Translations under genes and position numbers: made by a program
NCBI GenBank assembly: GCA_022447665.1
Contig: JAKVAQ010000003.1
Span: forward strand, 1-64,000
Source of the DNA: Crocinitomicaceae bacterium
Lineage (GTDB): Bacteria; Bacteroidota; Bacteroidia; Flavobacteriales_D; Crocinitomicaceae
Direction of reading: 5' to 3'
Length of the DNA: 64,000 bases
Shown: one piece after another, positions 31,416 through 42,018 of the stretch
How positions within the stretch are numbered: the first letter of the stretch is position 1
How the letters are laid out: the number at the start of each line of letters is the position of its first letter
The notes under the pieces: generated by a model
What the model was told of the DNA's origin: nothing
Database searches by the model: none
What the model saw: the letters and a program-made list of their open reading frames with translations, nothing else

Positions 31416-32147
31416 TCAAACACGACTTTGCTTCCTCCAAATTCTCAATAGCACAGGCGCCACCATCAACCCAATCAATCCACCAGCAATAGCCGTTGCT
31501 ATCAAGTCTCCAAAACTTTGAATACCACGTATGAGAACGATAAAAACCATGACACCACCGACCGTTGAATAGTATTTAAGTCTTTCCTTAAATTCTAACC
31601 AATTGAAGCGAAGATTAGTCGGTAATATCACGGCTAAAACAATAAATGCTGCCCCTAATAAGGTTGTCATCATTTGCCAAAAATCAGGAGTTGGAAAAGT
31701 CCTTCCTAAGAAATGCGTCTCTCCTTGCAAGTACGGAATGTACTGCACAAAATATCCATTCGTATGTGTAAATGCATCCACCAAAAAGTGAGAGAATATT
31801 CCTGCCAATGCTGAAAGGATAAAAACAAACCAGTGCGTTCTAACCCAAAGCCACCAGTTCATTCCTAAAAATGGTGCGTACTTCTCACGAACCATCTTCG
31901 GTAAATTCTGAATCAATCCATCCCGCACCAACCAATGAAAAAGCAAACAACAAATAAAAGTCAGAGGTAAATCGTAATAAAATGCTCCAGCAATGGTGTG
32001 GCCGTGCTCACGCTGCATGCGCATATGAATAAAGTATTCAAAATCAGGCGCCATGCTTCCCATGATTAAGCCTGAGGCCGAAACATAACGACTATTTAAT
32101 TTACAGAATGGTAATACGAAGGCTGGATGTGAAAATGTAAAAGGCAT
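31416..32147 (-). CDS. DUF4184 family membrane protein
   Basis: 243 residues with about six transmembrane segments. The N-terminus (MPFTFSHPAFVLPFCKL, GSMAPDFEYFIHMR) and HFLVDAFTHTNGYFV show the His/Asp-rich motifs of DUF4184, a family distantly resembling membrane-bound metal-dependent hydrolases (YdjM/LexA-regulated type). Conserved His and Asp residues face the same side and could bind a metal. Function unknown. It is separated from the upstream Coq4-like gene by a repeat-like element of about 65 bases. Confidence 0.82.
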   Translation of the reverse strand: MPFTFSHPAFVLPFCKLNSRYVSASGLIMGSMAPDFEYFIHMRMQREHGHTIAGAFYYDLPLTFICCLLFHWLVRDGLIQNLPKMVREKYAPFLGMNWWLWVRTHWFVFILSALAGIFSHFLVDAFTHTNGYFVQYIPYLQGETHFLGRTFPTPDFWQMMTTLLGAAFIVLAVILPTNLRFNWLEFKERLKYYSTVGGVMVFIVLIRGIQSFGDLIATAIAGGLIGLMVAPVLLRIWRKQSRV

Positions 32148-32172
32148 AATTATTTAAGTTTAATTATTAATT

Positions 32173-32239
32173 AGGGAATGTCCTCCCCCTATTCGCTACC
32201 TTTTCTGCGGCAGCTCTTTTCCCCCTCCAAAGGGGGAAT
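32173..32239. repeat. Repeat-like element overlapping the 3' end of the Coq4-like gene
   Basis: GGGAAT ends on both sides, a stable CCCCCT (32221-32226) / AGGGGG (32231-32236) hairpin and a GC-rich core distinguish this 67-base block from its AT-rich surroundings. It encodes the last 16 residues and the stop of the Coq4-like gene. The form resembles small dispersed elements seen in Bacteroidota intergenic regions; only one copy lies in this window. Confidence 0.4.
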
Positions 32240-32698
32240 AATTTTATAATTTTTTTGAATCTCTTCTAATAAAAGATGGAGCATGTTCTCCACCTTCAAA
32301 TCATATAATTTGGGCAGTTCCTTACCTCTTTTATAAAGTGATTTATAGTATTTGAAATAATCAGGGACAAGGACAGTTCCGACAATCATGGTTGAGAATA
32401 AATAAGGCGTCCGTTTTCCATTTCCAAACAATAGATATTGCATTCCAATCTCATCTTTCACCTCAATACCAATCTTTAAGAAAACGTGGTAGGCATCATG
32501 TCGCTCTAGCTTGGGCAAAATTTCAAATCCATTATTATTTAAAAACTTCGATAATTCATTTCCCCAAGTTCCTTTGGGCAGTGCCATGAGTTCTTTAATT
32601 CCTAAAGACCATGGTTTCCTTTTCTTCTTAAAGTACTTGGCATATGGTTTATCCGTCACGGTGAATAACCATAGGCATATTTTTTCGCGGATTTTCAT
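32189..32698 (-). CDS. Coq4-like protein
   Basis: 169 residues. It contains the exact metal-binding signature of Coq4, H-D-x-x-H-x11-E: H67, D68, H71 and E83 in ERHDAYHVFLK...DE, followed by a hydrophobic helix region (YLFSTMIVGTVLVPDYFKYY) like that of Coq4. In eukaryotes and alphaproteobacteria Coq4 acts in ubiquinone synthesis. Here menaquinone is expected (menE is at 41.0 kb), so another lipid-linked role is likely. The last 16 residues are encoded by a repeat-like element and probably do not belong to the ancestral protein. It starts 2 bases after the DUF4173 gene stop. Confidence 0.7.
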   Translation of the reverse strand: MKIREKICLWLFTVTDKPYAKYFKKKRKPWSLGIKELMALPKGTWGNELSKFLNNNGFEILPKLERHDAYHVFLKIGIEVKDEIGMQYLLFGNGKRTPYLFSTMIVGTVLVPDYFKYYKSLYKRGKELPKLYDLKVENMLHLLLEEIQKNYKIIPPLEGEKSCRRKGSE

Positions 32699-32700
32699 GA

Positions 32701-34188
32701 CTAATAACCGTATGAAAACATTCCACGAAATGAATCATAAGGACCAAAGGCATCCGGCCATTTCCGTAATTCAGCTAGAACATATTTATCAGTCATGTTA
32801 AGTGATCGCCAAGTAGATCGCTCTTCTCTACTGGCTAACCGATCTCTTGAGTATCTCGCAAAATCTATAAGATCCGTTTCATAGTATTCATCCATAACCG
32901 TGGTCTGATGATATTGAATGAGAGCAGGTAGAGCATCAGAACCTAGATCAAGAATATAATCCAAATCAATGCGTTCTTTCGCCACATGGGTTAGATTGTG
33001 TTCAGCAATGATTCGGTCCCAAGAAAAGCAGGCAAAGACAACAAAGAATGTTAAGAAAGAAATTGATGTTGTTCTCAGTAAAAACCAAAATGACTGTACC
33101 TTGAACAATTTATAAATGGTCAATCCTATTCCAATCACAGCTAAAAATAGATATACAAAAACCCCAATTCTTTTATAAGTTAAGCCCCAATGTGAAACGT
33201 ATTCCCAGTTTTTAGCTAAGGTGGTTGATATCATCACGAGGTTTTGAATGAGCCAAATCGCTGCTATCCGTTTTATCCATTTTGAGCCCTGAAAATTCAA
33301 CTGACCACGGAACATATAAGTCAGCAATAAAATCACCAAAATAATTGAAGTTATTAAGGCGTTTATTCCTCCATGCACCACCTGCGAATAAGAAGACTCG
33401 AAGCCGTGATTAAATAATTTGGTGCTTACAAAACTGACGTCGATAATATTGTAAAGAAGCAAAAAGGCGTTCAAGGTTATGAGTAAAGCAATGGCCACCT
33501 TAGTTTCATTCTTTACCCCTACTGCACGTTGAATTCCATCCGTGTAATCTTCGTTTATATCGTTCTTTAATGCTTCTTCCCACGCTGTGATTATTTCATC
33601 TTTTCTGGCGTAATAAAAGCCATACAAAAACAAGGTCAATACCAAATAAAAGCCTAAAAAGCCCCATGAAATCCAATCCAAATTAATCCATTCTGTATAG
33701 GCTTTGAAGGTTTCATCGGCTGACTGATACAATTTCAAAAAGATAATCGCTACTAGAATAGGAATCAATACTAAGAGGACATTTTTCATGACCTTTTTTC
33801 GTTTTGTCTCTGCTGAGTTACCAATTGTAAAGAGATTCTCGAAATAATAATAAAAACCTGACCCAAAAGCTTGAACACTTTGTATGATACCTATGGGCAA
33901 CGAATGCTTCAAAAATATTTGTGTTGCAATAAATACAAGGGCTGTAAAGAAATACAAGAAAATACTTAAAACTGAAGCCTGTAAAAACACTGCTAAACCC
34001 GATGCAGCGAATATTCCTGACATAAACCACCATTTCGGTTCTATTAAATACTCCTGCTTTAAGAATCCAAATATTGGAATTGATACCAGTGAAACAATAA
34101 GGGCGTTTAAACCAAAGTATTCTTGGTAATACATGTTGGCAATGACCAATACCCAACCTAGATAAATGTAATTTTTTATTCTTTCCAT
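32701..34188 (-). CDS. DUF4173 family membrane protein
   Basis: About 495 residues, 11-12 transmembrane segments, with the family segments YFENLFTIGNSAETKRKK and LTYKRIGVFVYLFLAVIG and a soluble C-terminal tail of about 90 residues that includes ERIDLDYILDLGSDALPAL. Function unknown; in related genomes it is found beside small winged-helix regulators, as here. I start it at ATG 34188 (MERIKNYIYLG): the longer TTG-initiated frame would lie inside the operator/promoter at 34205-34221. Confidence 0.85.
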   Translation of the reverse strand: MERIKNYIYLGWVLVIANMYYQEYFGLNALIVSLVSIPIFGFLKQEYLIEPKWWFMSGIFAASGLAVFLQASVLSIFLYFFTALVFIATQIFLKHSLPIGIIQSVQAFGSGFYYYFENLFTIGNSAETKRKKVMKNVLLVLIPILVAIIFLKLYQSADETFKAYTEWINLDWISWGFLGFYLVLTLFLYGFYYARKDEIITAWEEALKNDINEDYTDGIQRAVGVKNETKVAIALLITLNAFLLLYNIIDVSFVSTKLFNHGFESSYSQVVHGGINALITSIILVILLLTYMFRGQLNFQGSKWIKRIAAIWLIQNLVMISTTLAKNWEYVSHWGLTYKRIGVFVYLFLAVIGIGLTIYKLFKVQSFWFLLRTTSISFLTFFVVFACFSWDRIIAEHNLTHVAKERIDLDYILDLGSDALPALIQYHQTTVMDEYYETDLIDFARYSRDRLASREERSTWRSLNMTDKYVLAELRKWPDAFGPYDSFRGMFSYGY

Positions 34189-34204: not shown

Positions 34205-34221
34205 ACTTTGAATTTCAAAGT
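34205..34221. promoter_or_regulatory. Operator-like palindrome before the DUF4173 gene
   Basis: ACTTTGAATTTCAAAGT, a perfect 17-base palindrome (8-base arms around one base). It overlaps an AAACTTTG -7-like box (34223-34216, minus strand) and lies 17 bases before the ATG. The same palindrome with one mismatch occurs at 35181-35197 before the first gene of the operon, within a shared context AAAAAGCACTTTG.ATTTCAAAGTT. The winged-helix protein encoded between the two sites is the natural candidate to bind them. Confidence 0.65.
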
Positions 34222-34534: not shown

Positions 34535-35173
34535 CTATTTCTTATAATCGTATTTGAAGTACATTATTGTTCCGTAAACAATGTGCAATACCCCAAATCC
34601 AGTAGCCCAGTAATAAATCATATTTGCTGGGTTGAACAGGGCCAAAGTTCCCAAAATCATTTCAAGCCCCGCCAAATATTTTATTTCGTTGTGAACATAT
34701 TTTGAACCATTCAATAGGGACATACCATAGAAAATGAGCATTGAAGGAATAATTAAAAACGTTACGCCTTGCAACCAAAGTCCAAAACAGAAAACACCGC
34801 CAAAAAATAAGGGAACTCCAACACTCAGTGCTAAACGAAAACCCATAGGCGTTAAGATTTTCTGATTATTCTTTCTTGCTTTTAACCAAGTAAATAACAC
34901 CCCAAAGCTCAAGGCTAGAACTAAAACAATTCCTGCCAGTGCAAAGAGTTTCATATCTAACTCAAACCACCCTTCCTCCATTCTACCTTGCGCATAATAG
35001 AACGGCGCCTTTTTACTGAAAGTCTCAATCAAATCATAAGCTATCCAAACTCCCACTAAAGCGGTTATTCCAGCAAATACCCCGGAGAGTCCGCTAAGCG
35101 AAATAAACTTAGTTGACTTCTCCATTATTTTTCTGATCTCCTTAAGATCGTCTATCGGATTTTTATCTTCCAT
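34535..35173 (-). CDS. Membrane protein cotranscribed with the winged-helix regulator
   Basis: About 212 residues: a short charged N-terminus (MEDKNPIDDLKEIRKIMEKS) followed by about six transmembrane segments (FAGITALVGVWIAYDL, LFALAGIVLVLALSFGVLF, LALSVGVPLFFGGVFCFG, FLIIPSMLIFYGMSL and others). No family assigned. I start at ATG 35173 because the upstream TTG frame lies within the operator. Its TAG stop is in the same frame as the following regulator gene. The product could be a sensor or effector for the regulator; this is inference from order only. Confidence 0.75.
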   Translation of the reverse strand: MEDKNPIDDLKEIRKIMEKSTKFISLSGLSGVFAGITALVGVWIAYDLIETFSKKAPFYYAQGRMEEGWFELDMKLFALAGIVLVLALSFGVLFTWLKARKNNQKILTPMGFRLALSVGVPLFFGGVFCFGLWLQGVTFLIIPSMLIFYGMSLLNGSKYVHNEIKYLAGLEMILGTLALFNPANMIYYWATGFGVLHIVYGTIMYFKYDYKK

Positions 35174-35180
35174 AAAAAGC

Positions 35181-35197
35181 ACTTTGTATTTCAAAGT
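35181..35197. promoter_or_regulatory. Operator-like palindrome and promoter before the regulator operon
   Basis: ACTTTGTATTTCAAAGT, 17 bases with one mismatch in the arms, overlapping a full TAACTTTG -7 box on the minus strand (35199-35192). The ATG is 8 bases downstream of the palindrome. Near-identical to the site at 34205-34221, including AAAAAGC on one side and TT on the other. Confidence 0.65.
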
Positions 35198-40468: not shown

Positions 40469-41035
40469 GTGAGAAAGATCTTTGCAAGGCTATTTAGTTC
40501 ACTTTGGTTTTTAGGCTTAATTACCTTAATCGTATTTCCGATTCTGGCTTGGTTAATCCTTTGGCTCAGAGACATTCCTTTATTTTCTATTTTTGAAATT
40601 AGTCAAAAAGAAGTTTATTCACTTCCTGCATTTGCAGCCTACGGAATCATATTTGCGCTTTTTATTATTTGGTTTACCGAGCATCCTTTTTTCGAGAAAT
40701 CGATGAAACGGTATAAGAATTTATTATCTCAATTTAAAATCAACTATTTCTATGCCGTATTCTTGGCTATATGCGCTGGTGTGGGGGAAGAAATCTTTTT
40801 TAGAGGTGCGGTTCAACCATTGCTAGGAATAATTCTTACCGCCTTTGTTTTTGTTGCTGTTCATGGTTACTACGATTTTAAAAATTGGAAAGTAAATCTA
40901 TTTGCTATTGCACTTACTGGCTTTATCGTTTTAATTGGATGGGGAGCTGCCGAATATAGCTTATGGCATGCGATTCTGCCTCACTTTACTTATGATTTAG
41001 TGCTCCTGATTTACGCTATAAGAAAGCAAGATTAA
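40469..41035 (+). CDS. CPBP-family intramembrane protease
   Basis: 188 residues, about six transmembrane segments. It has the CPBP/CAAX-protease motifs in order: GVGEEIFFRG (EExxxR), FVAVHGY (FxxxH) and WHAILPHFTYD (HxxxN/D type). Family members are glutamate-type intramembrane proteases (Rce1-like) involved in prenyl-protein processing or bacteriocin self-immunity. Translation starts at GTG 40469. It may be cotranscribed with the L,D-transpeptidase 9 bases upstream; the 3' end overlaps menE by 4 bases in the opposite orientation. Confidence 0.85.
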   Translation: MRKIFARLFSSLWFLGLITLIVFPILAWLILWLRDIPLFSIFEISQKEVYSLPAFAAYGIIFALFIIWFTEHPFFEKSMKRYKNLLSQFKINYFYAVFLAICAGVGEEIFFRGAVQPLLGIILTAFVFVAVHGYYDFKNWKVNLFAIALTGFIVLIGWGAAEYSLWHAILPHFTYDLVLLIYAIRKQD

Positions 41036-42018
41036 AAGGTTTCTCGAATAACCTTACCTGAGCCGGTTTCTTTAAATTTTGGCAGGTAAATTATTTCTTT
41101 GGGCATTTCTTTTGAGTCCAGTAGATTTCTTAGCTCTTTTTCTAAATCTAATTTCGCCACAGATTCTATAACGAGTACAACAGCTTCCCCCCATTTTTCA
41201 TCTGCCTTTTTTGAAATGTAGTAACGCTGAGGTAAAAGATTCCCAATTTTTTGCTCAATTCTTTCTGGAAAGAGTTTTATACCTCCTGAGTTTATGGCAT
41301 TATCGGCACGGCCTAAAAACCTGAACATTCCCTTTTTAACTATTTCAACCAAATCATTGGTGAGTAGATCTTCTACAATCACTTCATTAGCTTTAAGAAG
41401 TAGTCGTCCTTCAGATGATTCAATTTCCCATCCCTGTAGACATTGATAAAGGTCATTTTCTTCAGAGATTTTCTTTAATGCGAAATGACTCAATGTTTCC
41501 GTCATTCCAAATGTTTGGTATGAATTATTATGTAAAGCCAATAATTGATCAAATTCAGCCTTCCCTAGCTGGGCACCACCGATAATAACATTTTTAATTT
41601 TACTATAGCGTTCTTTTGTTCTAGAATTGGTGAGAATCTCTCTAACTTGAAGGGGAACAAAGGCTGCAAAATCTAAATTCTGCGTTATTACTTCCAAAGG
41701 ATTTTTATTGGGTTCACACGCAATTACCTTCATACCAAATTCCTTTGCTCTTACGATAACCATTTTACCGCCGATGAAAGCTGGAGACATACACAAAAGA
41801 ATGGTTTGGTCCTGCTCAAAACCAAAAAACTTGCCTGTCGCCATAGCAGAATGACGCATAGCAGACTTATTTACCATAAATTTCTTAGGAGCACCGGTAG
41901 AACCGGAGGTCTGTACTTCAATTTCACTTGAATCTGAATCCCAATCTAGGATAAACTTCATACAAGCGTCTTTAAACTGAGTTGATGGATTACCTATAAA
42001 TTCAATTTGAAAAGCCAA
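41032..42018 (-). CDS. menE: o-Succinylbenzoate-CoA ligase-like protein (short Bacteroidota type)
   Basis: 328 residues, a short member of the ANL superfamily. The P-loop TSGSTGAPKKF (about residues 36-46), IIGGAQLGKAE, the A5 motif YQTFGMTETLSH and the C-terminal RADNAINSGGIKLFP hinge and GKVIRETF catalytic lysine are all present. MenE activates o-succinylbenzoate for menaquinone synthesis. The assignment is by similarity of the short Bacteroidota type; other men genes are not in the window. The start is TTG 42018, the only start that keeps the N-terminal helix before the P-loop. Confidence 0.82.
   Translation of the reverse strand: MAFQIEFIGNPSTQFKDACMKFILDWDSDSSEIEVQTSGSTGAPKKFMVNKSAMRHSAMATGKFFGFEQDQTILLCMSPAFIGGKMVIVRAKEFGMKVIACEPNKNPLEVITQNLDFAAFVPLQVREILTNSRTKERYSKIKNVIIGGAQLGKAEFDQLLALHNNSYQTFGMTETLSHFALKKISEENDLYQCLQGWEIESSEGRLLLKANEVIVEDLLTNDLVEIVKKGMFRFLGRADNAINSGGIKLFPERIEQKIGNLLPQRYYISKKADEKWGEAVVLVIESVAKLDLEKELRNLLDSKEMPKEIIYLPKFKETGSGKVIRETF

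Follow-up and report, generated by a model that had tools for sequence, protein, structure and literature searches.

Mutations in COQ4 cause severe CoQ deficiency in humans. The chemistry of the protein has been assigned recently and in partly conflicting ways, as a Zn-dependent C1 decarboxylase in vitro that requires its metal motif (PMC7615680) versus an oxidative decarboxylase in human cells, according to work cited in PMC11495197. Every Coq4 protein characterised so far functions in CoQ synthesis (PMC7615680, PMC11495197), and the locus analysed here raises the question of what a member of this family does in a menaquinone-type member of the Bacteroidota. The locus lies in a 64,000-nucleotide stretch of a Crocinitomicaceae genome (hereafter, the window), where an open reading frame on the minus strand runs from an ATG at 32698 down to 32189 and encodes 169 amino acids. 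A preliminary description of this DNA had reported H67, D68, H71 and E83 in the exact spacing of the Coq4 metal motif, followed by a hydrophobic segment. The translated ORF contains this HDxxH-x11-E motif (codons 67-83; 32450-32500, minus strand), and in the AlphaFold2 model a hydrophobic helix (residues 98-110) comes after the motif helices.

Scored directly against PF05019 (Coq4), the ORF reached 25.9 bits, above the curated cut-off of 22.9, with a match that covers only profile positions 124-220 of 221 rather than the full length; the N-terminal part of the protein is short and diverged relative to the profile. Coq4 was likewise matched by 13 of 14 relatives at E<=0.01. A profile built from 56 relatives recovered two credible PDB chains, 3msq (E=1.9e-8) and 6e12 (E=2.4e-8), in alignments that begin at approximately residue 30, and a Foldseek search with the predicted structure (pLDDT 92.5, pTM 0.86) placed the same two entries on top with probability 1.00, no other PDB entry being found at E<=0.001. 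Six columns are invariant in the 56-sequence alignment (H67, D68, H71, E83, G92 and G125), and four of these are the motif residues. Given the Pfam score, the PDB profile matches, the predicted fold and the invariant motif columns, membership of the Coq4 family, as the preliminary description had proposed, is secure, the protein belonging to the short (S) subfamily; orthology to COQ4 is not claimed. The profile, the fold and the conservation rule out a chance occurrence of the motif. Weak phmmer matches to designed toroids and KCTD1 vanished when the family profile was used.

The two structural matches are Nostoc Coq4 homologues, Alr8543 (6E12) and Npun02000094 (3MSQ), which share the predicted fold and the HDxxH-x11-E motif with the window protein and can be aligned with it over the stretch between about residue 30 and the C-terminus, an LG turn (G46) included. 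They exceed it by some 55 residues and have an insert ahead of the motif, show low identity to it (16-18%) and carry AQ in place of the invariant G92-N93. The motif of Alr8543 is occupied in the structure by oleate together with two Mg ions (PMC9774615). Human and yeast Coq4 have the Pfam family and the metal motif in common with the window protein (PMC9774615), and they act in ubiquinone synthesis together with COQ3, 5, 6, 7 and 9 (PMC7615680), a setting unlike that of the window genome, in which no COQ7, UbiG or UbiH relative was found above cut-off.

The source genome (4.06 Mb, 99.98% complete) encodes MenD (362.6 bits) and MenA, consistent with the menaquinone-type metabolism that had been proposed for it. 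Family searches of the genome gave sub-threshold matches for UbiG and UbiH and no match for COQ7, so that the ring-modifying enzymes expected alongside a functional COQ4 were not detected; this absence refers to three families, in a genome-wide search that can miss weak members and that missed PF05019 itself even though the ORF scores above the cut-off directly. Four UbiA-family proteins are encoded, namely heme O synthase, MenA and two others, none of them above the ubiA_proteo cut-off. The Coq4 homology in a genome of menaquinone type leads us to infer that the substrate is probably something other than a ubiquinone precursor. The menE-like gene that the preliminary description had placed in the window is indeed present, as a short AMP-binding protein of 328 amino acids (41032-42018, minus strand), with o-succinylbenzoate-CoA ligase models as its best matches, all of them below their cut-offs.

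The Coq4-like gene is the fourth of an operon on the minus strand, preceded by a regulator and two membrane proteins as originally described. The first gene encodes MEM1 (34535-35173), a strongly conserved membrane protein predicted to have six long helices in addition to one at the N-terminus. Among 34 sequences it has 28 invariant columns; it scored above no Pfam cut-off, and its predicted fold matched nothing in the PDB at E<=0.001. It is followed by an HTH_34 winged-helix protein (PF13601; 34238-34531), presumably the repressor of the operon, whose position is conserved across loci, and by a DUF4153 membrane protein with an ATG start (32701-34188). Downstream of the Coq4-like gene lie a membrane protein of the DUF4184 / zinc-dependent phospholipase C-like type (31416-32147) and a prokaryotic diacylglycerol kinase, DagK (PF01219; 30927-31277), both assigned by Pfam and found in a conserved neighbourhood. 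Across the 58 loci of the S type, the recurrent same-strand partners are DUF1361 (35 loci), DUF4153 (27), DUF2809 (24), CreD (19), DUF218 (12), DUF4184 (11), DagK (11) and a B12-binding radical-SAM protein (5), counts that derive from sequence clustering and may understate divergent partners. All but two or three of these partners are membrane proteins, the family names of several suggest a link to the envelope or to lipids, and quinone genes are not among the recurrent members of the operon at these 58 loci. This context points to functions in the envelope or in membrane lipids rather than in aromatic metabolism. Hence, of the earlier suggestion of an alternative substrate, perhaps a lipid-phase aromatic, the departure from ubiquinone precursors is supported by the homology and the genome background, and the operon directs attention away from the aromatic part.

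A palindrome search revealed two perfect palindromes in the window operon: putative operator 1, ACTTTGAAATACAAAGT, upstream of MEM1 (35181-35197), and putative operator 2, ACTTTGAAATTCAAAGT, upstream of DUF4153-Coq4 (34205-34221), within which an alternative listed TTG start of DUF4153 (34218) also falls. These are the two copies of the perfect palindrome in the 4.06-Mb genome. At least two matches to ACTTTG-N5-CAAAGT, with up to two mismatches, were present at all 58 S loci, the usual positions being directly ahead of MEM1 and ahead of whichever gene follows HTH_34, often Coq4. The S loci contained 122 such palindromes versus about 5 expected, compared to 3 versus 2 expected in loci of the long type, and 27 loci fetched later yielded 34 sites versus approximately none expected. 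A wider palindrome regulon received no support, one-mismatch matches in the genome being no commoner than those to a reversed-pattern control. The flavobacterial sigma-A -7 consensus is TAnnTTTG (PMC9723704); this element overlaps putative operator 1 as an exact match and occurs at putative operator 2 with one mismatch. Most likely, HTH_34 would repress its own operon by binding both palindromes and occluding the -7 boxes that they overlap.

Among the relatives, those with MEM1 or HTH_34 nearby were labelled S (58 loci with, 34 without). Olleya and Muricauda are among the genera with relatives. Two subfamilies emerged, S (about 150-185 amino acids) and long, or L (mostly about 235-255), and the tree largely splits one from the other, with 3 label changes versus a mean of 29 after shuffling and some joins on long branches. 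The L proteins (around 240 amino acids) share the Coq4 core, the motif and the GN residues and score above the PF05019 cut-off; they differ from the window protein in a hydrophobic C-terminal extension, in their gene neighbours and in the lack of paired palindromes. The family occurs in at least 28 of 395 sampled Bacteroidota genomes, a lower bound with some of the candidates scored, and this sparse distribution makes a core role in menaquinone synthesis unlikely. Within the family to which the window genome belongs, 15 of 150 genomes had a Coq4-like match and 47 had MEM1, which suggests a wider MEM1-HTH_34 operon that Coq4 joins as an optional passenger; one such operon (genome G030, locus L170) has no Coq4 match. 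A natural loss of the metal site was observed in an S-type relative (L165:1438-1905; G483:C15), which carries QDILR (QDxxR) instead of HDxxH and retains the glutamate, the GNG turn, MEM1, HTH_34 and both palindromes. An S-like Coq4 without MEM1 or HTH_34 was also seen on an 8.7-kb contig labelled Pseudomonadota (L081, a Thiotrichaceae MAG), reflecting either transfer or mis-binning.

Taken together, the conserved site, the lack of ubiquinone genes above cut-off and the membrane operon suggest that the window protein is a short, membrane-peripheral, metal-dependent enzyme of Coq4 fold with a non-ubiquinone substrate in the lipid phase, encoded as an optional member of an HTH_34-repressed inner-membrane operon, a reading in which our confidence is evenly balanced. 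Under this reading, the protein would most likely use H67, D68, H71 and E83 to bind one or two divalent metal ions, would probably reside at the inner membrane, on its inner face, and would probably act on a lipid-soluble molecule (a prenyl, phenolic or fatty lipid) distinct from ubiquinone precursors; the envelope operon to which its gene optionally belongs would regulate itself. By analogy with animal COQ4, metal-dependent decarboxylation may serve as the default guess for the reaction, albeit a doubtful one. More specifically, we tentatively propose that a Coq4-fold metalloenzyme may have been recruited, independently of any ubiquinone pathway, for the processing of a membrane lipid or prenyl carrier within an inner-membrane operon that would be the single target of repression by HTH_34.

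Two observations count against the preferred reading, namely that most genomes with MEM1 have no Coq4 and that the L165 protein with QDxxR has the same neighbours and operators, the latter being compatible with a non-catalytic role. The Coq4 fold might then hold a lipid or organise the membrane proteins of the operon, any metal being structural, in keeping with the nearly exclusive membrane nature of the recurrent partners and with the organising role long assigned to yeast Coq4 in the CoQ complex (PMC11495197). The four ligands are, however, invariant in the 56 relatives, unlike most of the surface, a pattern typical of an active site, and we regard a lipid-binding or scaffold protein as rather unlikely. 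We consider it improbable that the protein is an enzyme of a quinone pathway, modifying menaquinone or a precursor of it or processing ubiquinone precursors taken from the surroundings: the CoQ role of its characterised relatives and the active menaquinone route indicated by MenD and MenA would fit, but the family is sporadic both in the phylum and in the 150 genomes of the window's own family, and no quinone gene recurs beside it. Moreover, MenA takes off the DHNA carboxyl during prenylation, and a separate decarboxylase would therefore be superfluous.

The 3' end of the gene bears on yet another explanation, a former Coq4-like protein decaying without present function in the window genome. 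A dispersed repeat (32172-32246, or 32182-32236 on the minus strand in a narrower delimitation), with 13 genome matches at E<=0.1 of which two are long and 82-90% identical, encodes the stop codon and the last ~15 residues, PPLEGEKSCRRKGSE, outside the family domain. This repeat-derived tail, the long end branch of the window sequence in the tree (0.93) and the many MEM1 genomes without Coq4 are compatible with decay. Against it, the frame is full-length, the motif is intact and all invariant columns are kept; the predicted fold is confident up to approximately residue 150, with a pLDDT of 57 in the tail, and the relatives end near the point reached by the pre-tail part of the window protein, so that the tail replaces nothing conserved. 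Decay is accordingly the explanation to which we assign very little probability.

If the tentatively proposed recruitment to a membrane lipid or prenyl carrier is correct, the window protein would be the first Coq4 whose substrate is not a quinone, in a bacterial system simple enough for dissecting Coq4 chemistry. A compact Coq4 core whose metal site is invariant, in a genome where none of the ubiquinone ring-modification enzymes searched for was found above cut-off, offers a test of the action of the fold itself. The system comes with a candidate regulator, two putative operators and a small gene set, and its operon links membrane families lacking a known function (MEM1, DUF4153, DUF1361, DUF2809 and DUF4184). 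Coq4-like proteins of Bacteroidota have been annotated as COG5031, for instance in Chryseobacterium (PMC10710014), a likeness at the level of annotated family within the same phylum, and their presence in this phylum is therefore already catalogued. In the openly licensed literature we found no account of what these proteins do, of a division into subfamilies, or of their operon and its operators. Functional work on any bacterial Coq4 was likewise not found there, nor was anything on DUF4153 in Bacteroidetes or on Coq4 in connection with cyanobacteria and zinc; within those papers, the subfamily split, the operon and the two-operator arrangement appear not to have been described before.

Two genes at related loci deserve mention. 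The B12-binding radical-SAM protein passes the BchE equivalog cut-off (501 versus 481 bits) and is encoded at L031:6914-8368, with equivalents in L023, L028, L030 and L032, in genomes of the family to which the window belongs. At one locus of the class, L143, a permuted papain-like amidase (Peptidase_C92, YaeF/YiiX; 2313-2999) lies between MEM1 and HTH_34.
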